Shown here one piece after another: positions 3,226 to 44,072 of a DNA stretch of 64,000 bases. Numbering within the stretch: position 1 is the stretch's first letter; every line of letters begins with the position of its first letter. The stretch spans positions 124,001-188,000 of the forward strand of contig NZ_JAJLQY010000009.1 in assembly GCF_020991275.1 (NCBI RefSeq), written 5' to 3'. The notes under the pieces are model-generated. The model had not been told where the DNA came from and made no database searches. It saw only the letters and a program-made list of their open reading frames with translations. This stretch comes from Actinocorallia sp. API 0066. Its GTDB lineage: Bacteria > Actinomycetota > Actinomycetes > Streptosporangiales > Streptosporangiaceae. Position numbers and translations under genes: made by a program.

Positions 3226-3570
3226 TTTCTGCGTCTGTGGCGGGTGTTTGACGAACCCGTACTGGCCGCCGCCGGGGGCCGCAGCACGTCCGTATTCGAT
3301 GTGGCCCGGGGTTAGGCGAGTGTGGCCGGAAGGTCAGGCGAAAAGATCCGCCCGGATGAACGGCAGGCGTGCCCGCAAAGCCCTTTGATGTCCGGACTGT
3401 CCGGTGGTGTTCGTGGCGGGGTGTGGGTGGGTTGGTGGAGCGGTGGCGGGTTTGTGGTTGGTGGGGGGCTTGGGTAGGGGATCGGCGGTGATGCGGGGGG
3501 TGGAGCGGCGGGATTTGGGTGGGGTTGGGGGTGGGGGAGTCATTCGAAAGGATGATCGACTTGCCGTGAG
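3226..3570. other. Intergenic, G/T-rich low-complexity stretch
   Basis: I see no gene here. From about 3400 to 3540 the plus strand is almost only G and T with many runs of three or more G. A short open frame through it has no protein-like composition. The last bases (3544-3559) contain a degenerate second copy of the LexA-box pattern, TCGAAAGGATGATCGA, just upstream of the good one. Confidence 0.6.
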
Positions 3571-3586
3571 TCGAAATCTTGTTCGA
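3571..3586 (+). promoter_or_regulatory. LexA (SOS) box upstream of imuA'
   Basis: TCGAAATCTTGTTCGA matches the actinobacterial/Bacillus-type LexA operator TCGAACN4GTTCGA at 11 of 12 defined positions. It lies immediately upstream of imuA', as expected for the damage-inducible mutasome operon. Confidence 0.85.
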
Positions 3587-3596
3587 TGATGGGGGA

Positions 3597-4256
3597 GTGG
3601 GTGCGTGGGACGGGCTACGAGTCGAGGGACTCGTGGGGTCGTTGGGAACGCCGGAAGAACTTCTGGAAGAGCTGGTTCCGGTGCTCGCGCCCCTGCGTCC
3701 GGTGGTGCCGCAGTTGAGAGGAGGCAGTGTGGTGACGGTCGGCGGGAGTGCCGCGCTGGGAACGGCGCTGGTCGCGGGGGCGGCCCGGGGCGAGGAGTGG
3801 GCGGCCGTCGTCGGGGTGCCGGAGTTCGGGGTGGCGGCGGCGGTCGGGATGGGGGCCGACCCGGATCGGCTGCTGCTGGCCGACGCGCCCGGCGGGAGAT
3901 GGACGGAGGTGGTCGCCGCCCTGGCGGAGGGGGTGCGGCTGGTGCTGGTGCGTCCCCCCGCGCGGCCCGCGCCCGCGCAGGCCAGGCGGCTCGTCGCGGT
4001 GGCGCGCAAGCACGGGTGCGCCCTCGCCGTGCTCGGGCCCTGGGAGGGCGCCCACCTGCGGCTGACGGTCTCCGACGCGTCCTGGGAGGGGCTCGGGCAG
4101 GGGCACGGGCTGCTGCGCGCCCGTCGTGCCCGCGTCACCGCCACCGGGCGCACCGCACCGGGCCGGGGCAGGTCCGCCTGGCTGTTCCTCCCCGGCCCCG
4201 ACGGAAGGGTCGCTTCGGCGCCCACCCCCTTCCGCCGCCTGGGGGTGGTCGCGTGA
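3597..4256 (+). CDS. imuA': ImuA' mutasome accessory protein (RecA-like)
   Basis: About 219 aa. The protein resembles the RecA/SulA-like ImuA' that precedes imuB in actinobacteria. It keeps a RecA-like core (GGSVVTVGGSAALGTALVAGAA, EWAAVVGVPEFGVAAAVGMGADPDRLLLADAP), but the Walker A is degenerate (GGSAALGTA instead of GxxGxGKT), as in the family. In mycobacteria ImuA' and ImuB form a complex with DnaE2 for error-prone translesion synthesis after DNA damage. The stop overlaps the imuB GTG start. The start is uncertain: GTG 3597 is used here, while GTG 3633 has a better-spaced GAGGG. The LexA box sits directly upstream. Confidence 0.8.
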   Translation: MGAWDGLRVEGLVGSLGTPEELLEELVPVLAPLRPVVPQLRGGSVVTVGGSAALGTALVAGAARGEEWAAVVGVPEFGVAAAVGMGADPDRLLLADAPGGRWTEVVAALAEGVRLVLVRPPARPAPAQARRLVAVARKHGCALAVLGPWEGAHLRLTVSDASWEGLGQGHGLLRARRARVTATGRTAPGRGRSAWLFLPGPDGRVASAPTPFRRLGVVA

Positions 4257-5887
4257 CGGCCGCGCGCCCCGGCGGTCCCGAGGGCCGTGCGACGACCGGT
4301 GCCGCCGTGCCGGCCGGGGGCGGTCGTGTGCGGCGGGTCGCCGTCGTCTGGTGTGCGGACTGGCCGTTGGTGGCGGTGGGGATCGAGGCGGCGGTGCCCG
4401 GGGCCGTCCTGGAGAAGCACGGGTCGTCGGAGAAGGTGGCGGCCTGTACGGCGGCGGCCAGGGCGGCGGGGGTACGGCGCGGGCAGCGCAGGAGGGACGC
4501 GCAGCGGCTCTGCCCCGAGCTCGTTGTGGTGGAGCGGGATCTGGACGCGGAAGGGAGGGCGTTCGAAGGGGTGGCGGCCGCGGTGGCGGAGCTGACGCCG
4601 CGCGTCGAGGTGGTCAGGCCCGGCGTGTGCGCGATCCCGGCGCGGGGGGCGGCGCGGTTCCACGGCGGGGAGGAGGCGTTGCGGATCACCGTGCAGGACG
4701 CGGTGGTGGAGGCGGGGCACGACTGCGGCGTCGGCATAGCCGACGGGCTGTTCACCGCCGAGTTGGCGGCCCGCAACGGCGGCGGCGGGCTCATCGTGCC
4801 CGAGGGCGGGTCGGTGGCGTTCCTCGACGGGTTCCCGCTGGGGGTGCTGGCGGGGGCTGTTCCCGGCTGGGACGTCCTCGCGGAGGTGCTGGTGCGGCTC
4901 GGCGTCCGGACGCTGGGCGAGCTGGCCCGGCTGCCCGCGGGGGACGTCGCGGGCAGGTTCGGCGCGGCGGGCACGCTGGCGCACCGGCTGGCCGGGGGCG
5001 TCGAGCCGCGCGACGTGGCGCCGCACGCGGGCCTGCCCGACCTCACGGTGGTCCGCCCGTTCGACCCGCCCGCGGCGCGCTCGGACGAGGTCGTGTTCGC
5101 GGCCAAGGCCCTGGCCGACCGGCTGCACGCGGGCCTCGCCGCCGAGGGCCTGGCGTGCGTGCGGCTGGGCGTCGAGGTCGAGTTCGCCGACGGCGGGGTG
5201 TCGGAGCGGCTGTGGCGGCACGAGGGGCTGCTGTCGGCGCAGGCGGTCGCCGAACGGGTGCGGTGGCAGCTGTCGGGGTGGCGGCCCGCCGACGCGGACG
5301 CGGTCTGGGGCGGGGTGAGCGCGCTGCTCCTGGTGCCCGACCAGGTCGTCACCGACACCGGCGTCCAGCGCGCGCTGTGGGGCCGGGACGGCACGGGTGC
5401 GCGGGGCGAGCTGCCCGAACGTGTCGCGAGGGCCGCCGACAGGGTTCAGGCGATGCTGGGGCACGGCGCGCTCACCCGCCCCCACCTGACGGGCGGGCGC
5501 GGGCCCGGCGAGCGGGTGTTGCGCGTCCCGGTGGGCGACCTGCCGTTGGAGACGCGCCCGGAGGGCCCGTGGCCGGGCGCGCTGCCTACACCCGCCCCCT
5601 CGGTGGTGCTACCGGAGGCGAAGCCGGTCGAGCTGCGTGACGCGGAGGGCGCGCTGGTCAGGGTGACGGCGCGCTGTGTCCCGTCCGCGCCGCCCGCCCT
5701 GCTCGTCATGCCCGACGGGGCAAGACACCGCGTCGTCTCCTGGACGGGCCCCTGGCCCGCCCACGAACGCTGGTGGGATCCGAACGCGTCCCGCCGCCTC
5801 GTCCGCCTCCAGGTCCTCACCCCCCGCGCCGCCCACCTCCTCACCCTGGAACACAGCACCTGGACCCTGGAAGCCACCTATGACTAA
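4253..5887 (+). CDS. imuB: ImuB, inactive Y-family polymerase-like mutasome protein
   Basis: 544 aa. The fold is that of a Y-family polymerase, with palm/fingers over residues ~25-250 and a little-finger region (RPFDPPAARSDEVVFAAKALADRLHAGLAAEGL) at ~260-340. The metal-binding acidic residues are missing: the first motif reads VVWCADWPLVAVG instead of DxDxFFAsVE, and the second reads ARGAARFHGGEE where active enzymes have SIDE. This is typical of ImuB, which acts as the hub linking DnaE2, ImuA' and the beta clamp. GTG 4253 overlaps the imuA' stop (GTGA), indicating translational coupling. Third codon positions drift from G-rich at the 5' end to C-rich at the 3' end. Confidence 0.9.
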   Translation: MTAARPGGPEGRATTGAAVPAGGGRVRRVAVVWCADWPLVAVGIEAAVPGAVLEKHGSSEKVAACTAAARAAGVRRGQRRRDAQRLCPELVVVERDLDAEGRAFEGVAAAVAELTPRVEVVRPGVCAIPARGAARFHGGEEALRITVQDAVVEAGHDCGVGIADGLFTAELAARNGGGGLIVPEGGSVAFLDGFPLGVLAGAVPGWDVLAEVLVRLGVRTLGELARLPAGDVAGRFGAAGTLAHRLAGGVEPRDVAPHAGLPDLTVVRPFDPPAARSDEVVFAAKALADRLHAGLAAEGLACVRLGVEVEFADGGVSERLWRHEGLLSAQAVAERVRWQLSGWRPADADAVWGGVSALLLVPDQVVTDTGVQRALWGRDGTGARGELPERVARAADRVQAMLGHGALTRPHLTGGRGPGERVLRVPVGDLPLETRPEGPWPGALPTPAPSVVLPEAKPVELRDAEGALVRVTARCVPSAPPALLVMPDGARHRVVSWTGPWPAHERWWDPNASRRLVRLQVLTPRAAHLLTLEHSTWTLEATYD

Positions 5888-5969
5888 CCCCAGAACCAAG
5901 AACCACAGGCCACCGCCAACGACCAACCACAGAAACACACCCCGAGAAGCACACATATGTACGGGCGCG

Positions 5970-6740
5970 ACCGGAGCACAGCTTAAGGACAGGCATCGGA
6001 AGGAGGGTCGCGGGGCACCGTTGACGGGCGGCCGTAGGAGCACGCACCCAGAGGCGGATGTGCGTAGAGGGCGTGGTCGGAGTGCAGGCACAAGGACGGG
6101 CGCCGGAGGGGGCCGTGGAATGCCGATGACGGGCGACTACGGGAGCACGTGCGGGGAGGGCGGCGTGCGTAGGAGAGCGATCAGAGCGCGGCGTAAGGAC
6201 GGGCGCCGGAAGGAGGGTCGCGGGGTGCTGTTGGCGGGCGGCCGCAGGAGCACACGCCGGGAAGCGCACGTGGTCGGAGTGCGGCGTAAGGACGGGTGCC
6301 GGGAGGAGGGTCGTGGGGTGCTGTTGGCGGGCGGCCGTGGGAGCACACGCCGGGAAGTGGGCGTGTGTGCGGGCGTGGTCGGAGTGCAGCTTGGGGACGG
6401 GCATTGGAAGGAGGGTCGTGGGGTGCTGTTGGCGGGCGGCCGTGGGAACACGCGTCGGGAGGTGGGCGTGTGTGGGGGTGTGGTCGGAGTGCGGCGTAAG
6501 GGCGGGCGCTGGGAGGAGGGGCGTGGGGTGTTGTTGGTGGGCGGCTGTGGGAGTAGGTGCTGGGAGGGAGACATGTGTAGGGGTGTGGTCAGAGTGCGGG
6601 GTAGGGCCGGGCGTCGGAAGGCGCCGTTGGCGGGTGGCCGTGGGGACACGCGTCGGGAGGTGGGTGTGTGTGGGGGTGTGGTCGGAGTGTGGTGTGAGGA
6701 CGGGTGTTGGGGGGAGGGGGTGGGTTGTGGGGTTTGGTAA
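5970..6740. repeat. About 8 tandem 105-bp imperfect repeats
   Basis: Successive copies, anchored on a GTCGGAGTGCGG-like sequence, start at about 5970, 6076, 6180, 6273, 6378, 6483, 6588 and 6681. Spacings are 106, 104, 93, 105, 105, 105 and 93. The two short copies lack 12 bp at different places, and the last is degenerate. Net lengths are multiples of three, so one plus frame stays open to 6740 and encodes a ~35-residue repeat (core EEGRGVLLAGGRGSTRREVGV). The reverse strand and the dnaE2 frame are also largely open. I cannot decide whether it is translated: there is no convincing start or ribosome site. It separates imuB from dnaE2. Confidence 0.85.
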
Positions 6741-6810
6741 TCCGGGGGTTTCTTGGAAGGAGTTTGTTCGGCGGTCTACTTGGGGGACGGGTGGGGGTGA
6801 GGGGACGGTT

Positions 6811-9800
6811 GTGGAGGCGGGGGTTGGGGAGGAAGGGCGGGGGTTTGTGGCTGGGGAGGTGGGTTGGGCGGAGTTGCACTGTCACTCGTCGTTCAGTTTT
6901 CTGGACGGGGCTAGTGATCCGGCGGCGTTGGCGCGGGAGGCGGCGCGGCTGGGGGTCGGGTATGTGGCGATCACCGACCATGACGGGATGTACGGGGCCG
7001 TCCAGTTCGCCGACGCCGTCCGGGCGGCGGGCATCCGCGGCGTGTACGGGGCGGAGCTGAGCCTGGACATGCCGGGCAGACGGGCGGGTGAGGCCGATCC
7101 GGGCGGCTGGCACCTGCTGGTGCTCGCCCGCGGCGCGGAAGGCTACCGGCGGCTGTGCGCGGCGATCACGAAGGCGCAGCTGCGCGGCGGCGAGAAGGGC
7201 CGCCCCCGCTACGACCTGGACGAGCTGAGCGAGGCGCACGACGGCCACTGGGCGGTGCTCACGGGCTGCCGGAAAGGCCCGCTGAGCCGGGGCGTCGGCC
7301 TCGCCGAGCTGGGCGAACGGTTCGGGCGGGGCAACGTGTTCGCCGAACTCATCGACCACCGGATGCCCGGCGACGACCCGCGCAACGACGCCCTCCACGC
7401 CGAGGCGAGGAAGCTGGGCTTCGGGGTCGTCGCCTCCAACAACGCGCACTACGCGACGCCGGGCCCGGAGGCGAGGCTGGCCCAGACGCTCGCCGCGATC
7501 CGCGCCCGCACCCCGCTGGACCAGATGGAGGGCTGGCTGCACGCGGCCGGCACCGCGCATCTGCGGACGGGCGCGGAGATGGCCGTCCGGCTGGCCCGCT
7601 TCCCCGGCGTCCGGGAGGCGACGGTCGAGCTCGCGGAGGCGTGCTCGTTCGACTTCAAGGCAGATCCGCCGGGGCTGCCGCGCTGGCCCGTCCCGGACGG
7701 CCACACCGAGGCGTCGTACCTGCGCGAGCTGACGTACAAGGGCGCGGTGCGCAGGTACGGCCCGCGTGACGCCGAACGCGTACCCGGCGCGTGGAAGCAG
7801 ATCGACCACGAGCTGGACGTCATCGAGCGGATGAAGTTCCCCGGCTACTTCCTCATCGTGCACGACATCGTGGAGTTCTGCCGCGAGAAGGGCATCCTGT
7901 GCCAGGGCAGGGGGTCGGCCGCCAACTCGGCCGCCTGCTTCGCGCTGGGCATCACCGGGGTGGACGCCGTCCACCACCGGCTGCTGTTCGAGCGGTTCCT
8001 GTCGCCGGGACGGGACGGACCCCCCGATATCGACCTGGACATCGAGCACAAACGCCGCGAGGAGGCGATCCAGTACGTCTACCGCAAGTACGGCCGCGAG
8101 TGCACCGCCCAGGTCGCGAACGTCATCTCCTACCGGCCCAAGATGGCAGTCCGGGACGCGGCCCGCGCGCTCGGCTACTCGCCCGGCCAGCAGGACGCCT
8201 GGTCCAAGCAGGTGGACTGGCGCGACCCGGTGAACATCGACCTCGTGCCGCCGCAGGTCATGGAGCTGGCCGAGCAGATGAGCAGGCTGCCCCGGCACCT
8301 GGGCATCCACTCGGGCGGCATGGTCATCTGCGAGCGCCCGGTCGGCGAGGTGTGCCCGATCGAATGGGCCGCGCGCGAAGGCCGGAGCGTCCTGCAGTGG
8401 GACAAGGACGACTGCGCCTCGGCCGGCCTCGTGAAGTTCGACCTGCTCGGCCTCGGGATGCTCTCCGCCCTCGCCGACTGCTTCCGGCTCGTCGCCGCCC
8501 ACCACGGCGAGCACTACGACCTCGCGACGCTCCCGCAGGACGACCCGGCCGTCTACGCGATGCTGTGCGACGCCGACTCGGTCGGGGTGTTCCAGGTCGA
8601 GTCACGCGCCCAGATGGCGACGCTCCCCAGGCTCAGACCCAGGAAGTTCTACGACCTGGTGATCGAGGTGGCGCTGATCCGTCCCGGGCCGATCCAGGGC
8701 GGCTCCGTCCACCCGTACCTGAAACGCCGCAGCGGCGACGAGGAGGCGACCATCCCGCATCCGCTCATGCGGAACGCGCTGGAGCGCACCCTGGGCGTTC
8801 CACTCTTCCAGGAGCAGATGATGCAGCTCGCCGTCGACTGCGCGGGGTTCACGCCGCAGGAGTCCGACGCGCTGCGCCAGGCGATGAGCTCCAAACGCGC
8901 GCCCGAACGGATCGAGCGGCTGCGCGCCCGGCTGCTGGCCGGCATGACCGAACGCGGCATCCCGCGGGACGTCGCCCTCGACGTCTACGACAAGATCCTC
9001 GGCTTCTCCAGCTTCGGGTTCCCCGAGTCGCACTCCCAGTCGTTCGCGCACCTCGTGTACGCGAGCTCCTGGCTGAAGCGGCACTTCCCGGCGGCGTTCA
9101 CCGCGGCGCTGCTGCGCAACCAGCCGATGGGGTTCTACAGCCCGCAGTCCCTGCTCGGCGACGCCAAACGGCACGGGGTGACGGTCCGGCCCGTCGACGT
9201 CAACGCCTCGGCCGCCCAGGCGACGCTGGAGGAGCCGCTCCCGCCCACGACGAGGCACCCGCACGGCCCGGAACGGCGGCAGCCGGCGATCCGGATCGGC
9301 CTGGACGCCGTCCGCGACCTCGGCGACGAGGCGGCACAACGCATAGCGGAAGGGAGACCCTATACGTCCATGGAGGACCTGGCCCTGCGCGTCCCGCTGT
9401 CGGCGGCGGCGTTGGAGGCCCTCGCGACGGCGGGGGCGTTCGACCGCTTCGGCCTGTCACGCCGGGAGGCGATCTGGACGGCGGGCGCGCTGGCGGGCAC
9501 CCGTCCCGGCCAGCTGCCCGGCACCACGCCCGGCCTGCGGGCGCCCGGCCTGCCGGAGATGTCGGTGGTCGAGGAGACCCTCGCCGACCTGTGGTCCACC
9601 GGGATCTCCGCGGTCCACCCGATGGCGCATGTCAGACCGCTGCTGGAGGAGTACCGGGCGCTGACCGCCGTCGCGCTGCGCACCGCCCGCGACGCGTCCA
9701 ACGTCGTCGTCGGCGGGCTCGTGACGCACCGGCAGCGGCCCCCGACGGCGGGCGGCGTCGTCTTCCTCAGCCTTGAGGACGAGACGGGCACCACCAACGT

Positions 9801-9969
9801 GATCTGCCCGGCGCCGGTGTGGGACCGGCACCGGGCGGTGGGGCTGTCAGCGCAGGGACTTCTGGTCAACGGCAGGCTGGAGCGGCGGGAGGGTGTCGTC
9901 CACGTGCACGCGACCAGGCTCCGGCGCCTGCCCGTCCCCGGGAAGGTCCGCAGCAGGGACTTCCACTGA
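6811..9969 (+). CDS. dnaE2: Error-prone DNA polymerase DnaE2
   Basis: About 1052 aa, close to known DnaE2 (roughly 1050-1180). It starts with a PHP domain (AELHCHSSFSFLDGASDP; TDHDGMYG), then the C-family polymerase core with the catalytic PDIDLDIEH near residue 405, helix-hairpin-helix motifs (GFTPQESDALRQAMSSKR; LGFSSFGFPESHSQSFAHL) and a C-terminal OB fold (GGLVTHRQRPPTAGGVVFLSLEDETGTTNVI). It performs mutagenic bypass with ImuA'/ImuB. GTG 6811 follows GAGGGGACGGTT; GTG 6847 is an alternative. The frame is open upstream into the repeat block (to 6313), which I regard as noncoding for this gene. No LexA box is seen directly upstream. The 3' end overlaps the convergent GH16 gene by 123 nt. 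Confidence 0.9.
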   Translation: MEAGVGEEGRGFVAGEVGWAELHCHSSFSFLDGASDPAALAREAARLGVGYVAITDHDGMYGAVQFADAVRAAGIRGVYGAELSLDMPGRRAGEADPGGWHLLVLARGAEGYRRLCAAITKAQLRGGEKGRPRYDLDELSEAHDGHWAVLTGCRKGPLSRGVGLAELGERFGRGNVFAELIDHRMPGDDPRNDALHAEARKLGFGVVASNNAHYATPGPEARLAQTLAAIRARTPLDQMEGWLHAAGTAHLRTGAEMAVRLARFPGVREATVELAEACSFDFKADPPGLPRWPVPDGHTEASYLRELTYKGAVRRYGPRDAERVPGAWKQIDHELDVIERMKFPGYFLIVHDIVEFCREKGILCQGRGSAANSAACFALGITGVDAVHHRLLFERFLSPGRDGPPDIDLDIEHKRREEAIQYVYRKYGRECTAQVANVISYRPKMAVRDAARALGYSPGQQDAWSKQVDWRDPVNIDLVPPQVMELAEQMSRLPRHLGIHSGGMVICERPVGEVCPIEWAAREGRSVLQWDKDDCASAGLVKFDLLGLGMLSALADCFRLVAAHHGEHYDLATLPQDDPAVYAMLCDADSVGVFQVESRAQMATLPRLRPRKFYDLVIEVALIRPGPIQGGSVHPYLKRRSGDEEATIPHPLMRNALERTLGVPLFQEQMMQLAVDCAGFTPQESDALRQAMSSKRAPERIERLRARLLAGMTERGIPRDVALDVYDKILGFSSFGFPESHSQSFAHLVYASSWLKRHFPAAFTAALLRNQPMGFYSPQSLLGDAKRHGVTVRPVDVNASAAQATLEEPLPPTTRHPHGPERRQPAIRIGLDAVRDLGDEAAQRIAEGRPYTSMEDLALRVPLSAAALEALATAGAFDRFGLSRREAIWTAGALAGTRPGQLPGTTPGLRAPGLPEMSVVEETLADLWSTGISAVHPMAHVRPLLEEYRALTAVALRTARDASNVVVGGLVTHRQRPPTAGGVVFLSLEDETGTTNVICPAPVWDRHRAVGLSAQGLLVNGRLERREGVVHVHATRLRRLPVPGKVRSRDFH

Positions 9970-42845: not shown

Positions 42846-44072
42846 GTGCGATTTAGGACAACTACAGAAGGTCAAGCATTCTCGGAGGATCTGGCCCGAA
42901 TACTGCAAAGCCGTGGTTGGCTAGTGAATCAAAATATATTTCCAGCCGGCTGGCTTCCCGATCTTTCAGCAATCTTCGATAGTCGAATCCTCCTCTTCAT
43001 AAGCTTGGAATTTGGGCAACAGTTTCTCCACTCAAGGACTGTGGACAAGCTTGCTAGGGCCCAGGGCGATATGGAATCTTTTTGGCCTGGCCGATCTATC
43101 CTGGTTCTTCTAAGCAACATGCCGATCAGTCCGCGTGTGCAATCGGCGCTGTCTTCAAGCGGAATAGACTTTTATGATCTGGCTAGATTCTCTAATATTG
43201 AGCAAATTATTGACGCTATTGAGAGCGTTTCTGGAATTCTTCCTAATTCTAATATTTCGCTTTCGGGTCAAGCAGATGCCGCGCTCAAGTCGGGCAATTT
43301 TGATGATGCAATTCGGCTATATGATAAGGTCATCAGGGAGCGTCGTGAAATTTTGGGGGCTGATCACCCCAGAACTCTAGAAGCGATTTATCGAATTGCT
43401 GCCATAAAATCAAAAATTGGCGATAGGTCTGGAGCTATTGCGACATATAGTGATCTGATTGTTGGCCAGCAGATTAGCCTCGGTGAGGATCATCCGGATA
43501 CGTTGACGAGCCGGAGTAACCTGGCCGCGTTGCTCCATGACATGGGTCGGCTGGAAGAGGCCGAGTTCGAAGCGAGGAATGTTCTCGAAGCGCGTCTCAG
43601 AGTGCTGGGGCCTGATCATCCGGATACGTTGACGAGCCGAAATAACCTGGCCGCGCTGCTCCATGACATGGGTCGGCTGGAAGAGGCCGAGTTCGAAGCG
43701 AGGCATGTTCTCGAAGCGAGTATTCGGGTGCTGGGGCCTGATCATCCGGATACGTTGACGAGCCGAAATAGCCTCACGGTATTGTTGCGCGACATGGGTC
43801 GGCTGGAAGAGGCCGAGTTCGAAGCGAGGAATGTTCTCGAAGCGCGTCTCAGAGTGCTGGGGCCTGATCATCCGGATACGCTGACGAGCCGAAATAACCT
43901 GGCCGCGCTGCTCTACGATGTGGGTCGGTTCGAAGAGGCTGAATGGGAGTTCCGTTCCGTTCTTGAGGCTCGGCGTAGATTGTTCAGTGAGGGGCACCCA
44001 TCGCTTATAGCGAGCCGACAGAACCATGAAATGGTCTTGCAAGCTCTGAACTCGAGTCGTGGAAGCGAATGA
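42846..44072 (+). CDS. AICE cargo: TPR protein with nuclease-fold-like N-terminus
   Basis: 408 aa. Residues ~1-135 (TTTEGQAFSEDLARILQSRGWLVNQNIFPAGWLPDLSAIFDSRILLFISLEF ...) resemble a degenerate restriction-endonuclease-like domain: the pattern PD ... LE is present but the usual Lys of PD-(D/E)xK is absent, so activity is doubtful. From ~165 on there are six 42-residue kinesin-light-chain-type TPRs (LGPDHPDTLTSRNNLAALLHDMGRLEEAE ...), units 2-4 nearly identical also at DNA level. GTG 42846. TPRs of this type occur in actinobacterial signalling and conflict proteins. Function unknown. Confidence 0.75.
   Translation: MRFRTTTEGQAFSEDLARILQSRGWLVNQNIFPAGWLPDLSAIFDSRILLFISLEFGQQFLHSRTVDKLARAQGDMESFWPGRSILVLLSNMPISPRVQSALSSSGIDFYDLARFSNIEQIIDAIESVSGILPNSNISLSGQADAALKSGNFDDAIRLYDKVIRERREILGADHPRTLEAIYRIAAIKSKIGDRSGAIATYSDLIVGQQISLGEDHPDTLTSRSNLAALLHDMGRLEEAEFEARNVLEARLRVLGPDHPDTLTSRNNLAALLHDMGRLEEAEFEARHVLEASIRVLGPDHPDTLTSRNSLTVLLRDMGRLEEAEFEARNVLEARLRVLGPDHPDTLTSRNNLAALLYDVGRFEEAEWEFRSVLEARRRLFSEGHPSLIASRQNHEMVLQALNSSRGSE

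Follow-up and report, generated by a model that had tools for sequence, protein, structure and literature searches.

A Tandem Array between imuB and dnaE2 of Actinocorallia sp. API 0066 as a Probable Translated Bridge between the Two Genes

The Cassette and Its Tandem Array

The genes of the imuA'-imuB-dnaE2 mutasome cassette lie in this order on the forward strand of a 64,000-nucleotide (nt) stretch of DNA from Actinocorallia sp. API 0066 (contig NZ_JAJLQY010000009.1; this whole stretch is called "the window" below), an actinomycete whose guanine-plus-cytosine (GC) content is 71% in the first stretches sampled. A long tandem array occupies the space between imuB and dnaE2, and here we argue that it is probably a repeat-expanded, translated bridge open reading frame (ORF), which keeps the translation of dnaE2 coupled to that of imuB.

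The imuA' gene (3579-4256, forward strand; start uncertain) was taken from the ORF list, and its homologues adjoin imuB in relatives. The imuB gene (4253-5887, forward strand) has an IMS domain match (E = 1.3e-15), a likely GTG start, and a TAA stop at 5885-5887; the stop of imuA' overlaps this likely GTG start by 4 nt (GTGA, 4253-4256). The dnaE2 gene (6727-9969, forward strand) has DNA_pol3_alpha and PHP domain matches and begins with GTG. Its start at 6727 is backed by an alignment with the DnaE2 of another genome of the same genus (G002), whose shared N-terminus begins there, and a Shine-Dalgarno (SD)-like run, GGGAGGGG (6712-6719, forward strand), ends 7 nt upstream of the GTG, inside the last, partial repeat unit. 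G002 contains one DnaE2 match, at 89%, a second genome of the genus (G001) is without a DnaE2-grade match, and the DnaE2 proteins of 18 Actinomadura-clade loci share 71.6-74.2% identity with that of the window. These domain matches bear out the array location between imuB and dnaE2 that was proposed in an earlier sequence-only reading of the window.

Tandem Repeats Finder (TRF) reports an array at 5984-6621, with a period of 105, 6.2 copies, 75% matches, and a score of 570. Split at an anchor, the array extends over 5987-6726 on the forward strand, with full units that start at 5987, 6094, 6197, 6290, 6395, 6500, and 6605 and are 107, 103, 93, 105, 105, 105, and 93 nt long, followed by a partial unit that runs from 6698 to the start codon of dnaE2. 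In other words, the "about eight 105-bp repeats" that the sequence-only reading placed within 5970-6740, a span that brackets the array, are real but are more precisely seven units of 93-107 nt, mostly 105, and a partial eighth. The 12-bp indels noted at that stage also hold: two units are 12 nt short, and an excess of 2 nt in unit 1 is offset by a deficit of 2 nt in unit 2, so that the reading frame is kept throughout. The seven full units are 66-88% identical in pairwise comparisons. Because the copies are no more alike than this, and because the array lies inside a 343.7-kb contig, an assembly artefact is unlikely.

When 40 of the 65 first-look candidates were scored, unit 4 as a query against the 7.0-Mb genome matched five places, all of them within the array, and the next match outside it reached only E = 0.014 over 29 nt; the whole spacer as a query against the genome matched itself alone. 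An origin from a dispersed repeat or mobile element was rejected on the grounds of this single locus. We also do not claim that the unit was derived from the leader of dnaE2, because the similarity is weak (p = 0.017 for 6693-6745 and 0.057 for 6706-6745) and the aligned GTG is not the start codon.

A single ORF of 286 codons (5880-6740, forward strand) traverses the entire spacer. The 3' end of imuB reads ..TATGACTAA, and the ATG at 5880, in the overlap ATGACTAA with the imuB stop codon, opens a frame that remains open across every repeat unit and is closed by a TAA at 6738-6740, within dnaE2. Counted from the first base of the dnaE2 GTG, this stop lies at +11, out of frame in codons 4-5 (GGT AAT). 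The bridge ORF therefore overlaps imuB by 8 nt and dnaE2 by 14 nt, and imuB, the bridge, and dnaE2 are linked by stop-start overlaps in the geometry of a coupled chain. With the overlap of imuA' and imuB added, the whole cassette can be read as ORFs that overlap one after another. The earlier view that the repeats split the cassette thus looks wrong in effect, since the spacer is an overlapping ORF that rejoins the two genes.

The imuB-dnaE2 Junction in Other Genomes

From 91 loci analysed, 12 without an upstream imuB, three without a recognisable dnaE2 start, and 11 that were identical in the stretch compared were dropped, leaving 65 distinct junctions, most of them from the family of the window and some from others. 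Three loci in which a needed end is missing (L005, L050, and L051) were left out of the junction set, and one (L020) was restored by hand, with a separately read start, for the chain and repeat tests.

The two genes overlap directly in 12 of the 65 junctions; the overlap is 8 nt in 11 of them, where the ATG of dnaE2 falls within the imuB stop overlap, and 1 nt in the other. Another 40 junctions have a spacer and carry, in the imuB stop overlap, an ATG at -5; the remaining 13 have a spacer without such an ATG. Of the 40, 35 close the frame opened by this ATG within the interval from -6 to +12 relative to the dnaE2 start, where 21.1 are expected from spacers shuffled with their dinucleotides kept and their flanks fixed. 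These ends fall at +11 in 15 junctions, at -2 (TGATG) in 11, at +1 (ATGA) in six, and at -5, -4, and +8 in one each. If chains of mini-ORFs are also counted, each start being allowed to lie up to 8 nt before or 9 nt after a stop, bridges are present in 31 of the 38 spacers of at least 24 nt (15.0 expected) and in 15 of the 19 of at least 60 nt (7.0 expected); the tail probabilities, 3e-15 and 4e-8, respectively, ignore relatedness. Most junctions in related Actinomycetia are either direct overlaps or bridged in this way.

Other tandem gaps of 24-1200 nt are bridged no more often than chance would have it: 21 of 287 in 864 kb of the source genome (25.2 expected) and eight of 143 in 400 kb of G002 (10.3 expected). 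With the stricter control of single bridge ORFs, the numbers are 10 of 287 (11.9 expected) and one of 143 (3.6 expected). Because these gaps do not exceed expectation, the bridge pattern is specific to the imuB-dnaE2 junction in the samples. A further set of 47 loci, all from families other than that of the window, contained 16 without imuB, one without a stop, 11 without a start motif, four direct overlaps, and three spacers shorter than 24 nt; of the 12 that were tested, seven are bridged, with about 2.0 expected from the summed printed probabilities.

The bridges themselves are not conserved. G002 has an unrelated spacer of 407 nt without such an array, and its bridge, of 141 codons, ends at +8. 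This is the second longest bridge among the junctions tested, after the 286 codons of the window. At another locus (L180, from genome G096), a 552-nt spacer has a +1 frame that is open beyond the dnaE2 start, although the imuB stop there has an ACG in place of the ATG.

Small tandem repeats recur at these junctions. TRF arrays (score of at least 30, period of at least 12) are present in 11 of 33 junction spacers of 24-200 nt, compared with six of 210 other tandem gaps in the source genome and three of 106 in G002; these controls come from the genus of the window, and most of the small arrays lie in Actinomadura. The periods of the 11 arrays are 12-19 nt, once also 36, and in relatives many of the units contain ATGAC or ATGGGCTGG, which are start motifs of dnaE2. 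In Actinomadura latina (L040), the copies of a 17-nt unit form four mini-ORFs joined by ATGA.

An Out-of-Frame Stop Inside dnaE2

The length of the spacer modulo 3 sets the frame in which a bridge reaches dnaE2. Among the 51 junctions with an ATG at -5, an out-of-frame stop in dnaE2 codons 4-5 is present in 15 of the 18 whose spacer phase needs it and in none of the other 33 (Fisher test, 2.6e-10, uncorrected for relatedness). In the three cases of the needed phase without this stop, the bridge ends at -4, +8, and +32. The stop, which may be TAA, TAG, or TGA, is formed by a T-ending codon before a conserved Asn together with the next codon. T is used in 15 of 16 NNY codons at this site, compared with 9.5% over codons 1-139 and 19.7% over codons 1-14, and the residues vary among the 20 junctions with the stop (GN, HN, SN, DN, GS, DS, and GD). 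On a DnaE2 tree of 64 rows, from which L146 was omitted for a run of N, the stop trait changes eight times and the spacer phase nine times.

Proposed Mechanism

We propose that imuB and dnaE2 originally overlapped directly or lay very close together, and that tandem duplication lengthened the junction. Survival would have been limited to changes that left a translated frame closing at the dnaE2 start, which would explain why the unit measures 105 = 3 x 35 nt, why the indels are of 12 nt, and why the +2 and -2 changes cancel. Ribosomes that finish imuB would start again on the bridge, read through the repeats, and then start once more on dnaE2; translation of the bridge would both hand on ribosomes and shield the spacer from Rho-dependent polarity, and the bridge peptide would be a by-product. 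The suggestion in the sequence-only reading that the repeats may change dnaE2 expression fits this proposal, and translational coupling is its likely route.

The transcript on which this relay would run probably starts before imuA'. Two LexA-box-like sites lie near the start of imuA' on the forward strand, one at 3571-3586 with one mismatch to the consensus used and a weaker one at 3544-3559 with two; none is found in the spacer of the window, even with up to three mismatches. A LexA box with 0-1 mismatch lies upstream of imuA' in all 18 of the Actinomadura-clade loci examined, and none of their imuB-dnaE2 spacers contains one with two mismatches or fewer (0 of 18). Taken together, boxes before imuA' and none in the spacers suggest a single SOS promoter for the cassette, so that dnaE2 would be transcribed from this LexA-controlled promoter. 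A PafBC-type motif has one match with three mismatches at 5901-5919 on the minus strand; we set it aside because such matches exceed shuffles across the window (11 versus 3.9 expected).

Going one step further, we lean towards the idea that, in Actinomycetia, selection at this junction keeps the passage of ribosomes and not the sequence. Bridges would then be free to take any sequence and any length, or in some cases to consist of several mini-ORFs in a row, provided that they stay open and end either at the dnaE2 start or on an out-of-frame stop in codons 4-5 of that gene, and recurrent tandem duplication would ratchet their length upward, to 286 codons in this case. If true, this would be a content-free kind of protein-coding sequence, retained solely for being translated. 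The bridge model offers a testable reason for an array inside a mutagenesis operon and for its frame-keeping indels, namely that the spacer must stay translated. If it is right, the output of ImuB and that of DnaE2 would be tied at the level of translation in many Actinomycetia, the length of the array could tune the output of a mutagenic polymerase, and gene finders would err both when they label such bridges noncoding and when they annotate them as genuine proteins. The locus also lends itself, as a natural experiment, to asking over what distance termination-reinitiation can be handed on.

Objections and Rival Explanations

Several observations weigh against a translated bridge. Taken by itself, the open frame of the window counts for little, because over 5888-6726 one minus-strand frame likewise lacks stops and the dnaE2 frame contains just two (stops number 0 in the bridge frame, 2 in the dnaE2 frame, and 11 in the imuB frame; 1, 3, and 0 in the minus frames). 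For the window, the shuffle probability is 0.001 when a single frame is considered and rises to 0.046 with strict and 0.141 with relaxed chains, and shuffling ignores the repeat structure. With an SD-like run of its own, dnaE2 may not depend on coupling. The gene starts of the control gaps were our own calls, which missed some true starts (the dnaE2 of the window was itself called late). Seven of the 38 junctions of at least 24 nt and five of the 12 in the further set are unbridged, and Streptoalloteichus tenebrarius (L053, 6639-7472) provides a natural counter-example, an 834-nt spacer with its own 16-17-nt tandem repeats and no bridge. When relatedness is taken into account by independent pairs, the association of the stop with the spacer phase is not significant: the 64 rows give 4.6 pairs in the same direction, 0 in the opposite one, and 3.4 without a difference (median p = 0.0625), and the 51 ATG rows give 3.8, 0, and 1.2, respectively (median p = 0.125). 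Finally, the stop at +11 is also present in four of seven same-phase junctions without an ATG at -5, where the start of a bridge is unclear.

The strongest rival is that the array is a neutral, untranslated minisatellite in a long intergenic spacer and that dnaE2 is started from its own SD-like site. The position of that site, 7 nt from the GTG, and the presence of arrays of period 70-100 in other long spacers of the genome speak for this explanation, as does the weak frame openness of the window taken alone. We nevertheless regard it as unlikely: the bridges seen across relatives, the stops that match the spacer phase, and the difference from other gene pairs all weigh against it.

A second rival holds that the cassette encodes a functional, SOS-induced repeat peptide or protein of 286 amino acids (aa) with 35-residue repeats. 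The sequence-only reading had suggested that the repeats may encode a repeat peptide, and it had the frame right: EEGRGVLLAGGRGSTRR is encoded in the frame that overlaps both genes. Selection at the peptide level was searched for among the units and not found. In units 3-7, pairwise differences at the three codon positions are about equal (0.223, 0.198, and 0.167), and the bridge frame shows a ratio of nonsynonymous to synonymous changes of 1.09 when scaled to random transitions; the differences among units are mostly transitions (157 versus 30). The ORF containing the array has no Pfam match at E values up to 0.001, and the bridge peptide of G002 (141 aa) has no real similarity to it (best blastp E = 3.0). 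A functional peptide is thus improbable, somewhat more so than the minisatellite, even though its open frame overlaps the genes at both ends.

It is very doubtful that the units provide alternative SD-GTG starts giving DnaE2 N-terminal extensions of 138, 103, or 68 residues: the dnaE2 frame is open from 6313, and candidate GTGs at a 105-nt spacing follow GGAGGAGGG-like purine runs on the forward strand at 6313-6315 (unit 4), 6418 (unit 5), and 6523 (unit 6), but such a start in an open stretch is limited to units 4-6, and the DnaE2 N-terminus shared with G002 begins at 6727.

Relation to Known Systems

In termination-reinitiation coupling, as with ATGA and TGATG junctions, an overlap or a very short gap is needed according to one study of gene pairs from Haloferax volcanii and Escherichia coli, in which gaps of about 20 nt almost abolished coupling (PMC10666635). 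A spacer that is long and untranslated should therefore break coupling, whereas a translated one need not. The bridge of the window resembles such junctions in the stop-start overlaps at both of its ends, and it differs in that two distant genes are joined via an intervening ORF of unconserved sequence.

The closest precedents are mycobacterial interspersed repetitive units (MIRUs) and the rnc-fpg1 repeats. MIRUs, as outlined in PMC2734929, resemble the present array in having a coupled frame within the repeat. They occupy 41 scattered locations in Mycobacterium tuberculosis H37Rv, are apparently mobile, and have a -4 nt spacing to the adjacent gene, whereas the present unit is found at one locus, its bridge overlaps its neighbours by 8 and 14 nt, and one frame traverses all the units. 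The same source describes repeats of 279-358 bp at rnc-fpg1 (ETR-F, VNTR3239) in the M. tuberculosis complex, where several other mycobacteria have a gap of 1-6 bp, and states that longer arrays were accompanied by more mRNA (PMC2734929). As at imuB-dnaE2, the downstream gene is a DNA-repair gene, the repeats end at its start codon, and the gap is short in relatives; the operon and the genus are different.

With imuA'-imuB-dnaE2 cassettes elsewhere, the locus shares its gene content and the LexA-type box before imuA', and it differs from them in that no other junction tested has a bridge of such length. Among the titles and abstract openings listed for imuB together with dnaE2 and tandem repeats, overlap, or coupling, and for Streptomyces repeats with coupling, none describes this junction. 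In the consulted parts of one article on another genus (PMC2864759), imuB/dnaE2 and overlap or coupling terms co-occur and are not linked.

Composition Gradient and Other Arrays

From the end of imuB into the beginning of dnaE2 (5888-6860), the sequence changes from C/A-rich to G/T-rich, long tandem gaps of the genome change likewise between their upstream and downstream genes, and the transitions by which the units mostly differ follow this gradient. Along the spacer, the keto (G+T) fraction climbs: it is 0.25 ahead of unit 1, 0.56 within that unit, and 0.90 in the final, partial one. The idea that the gradient is peculiar to the array was dropped, as long tandem gaps elsewhere in the genome show the same one: gaps of at least 400 nt share its direction in the source genome (26 gaps, mean +0.095) and in G002 (17 gaps, +0.081). 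In five other genomes (80 kb each), tandem gaps of at least 100 nt give +0.032, -0.005, -0.004, +0.001, and +0.035, and the Actinomadura-clade loci give -0.028 over 10 tandem gaps and +0.131 over 18 divergent gaps. Opposite GC skews at gene ends are described for fungi (PMC3315797).

The strongest gradient among the 105 gaps of the first sample is that of a 1415-nt tandem gap (L070, 15073-16487; G000 C3), which contains many TTTCACGTGAAAC motifs, presumably parS-like, as well as tandem repeats of 70-72 nt. An intergenic array with the same gradient lies at L065, 4929-5167 (G000 C1:24929-25167), with a period of 100, 2.4 copies, and an 87% match. Within the window, a second tandem array at 43488-43939, with a 126-bp period, 3.6 copies, and an 87% match, looks like coding repeats, and we take it, as a candidate label, to belong to a TPR-type protein.
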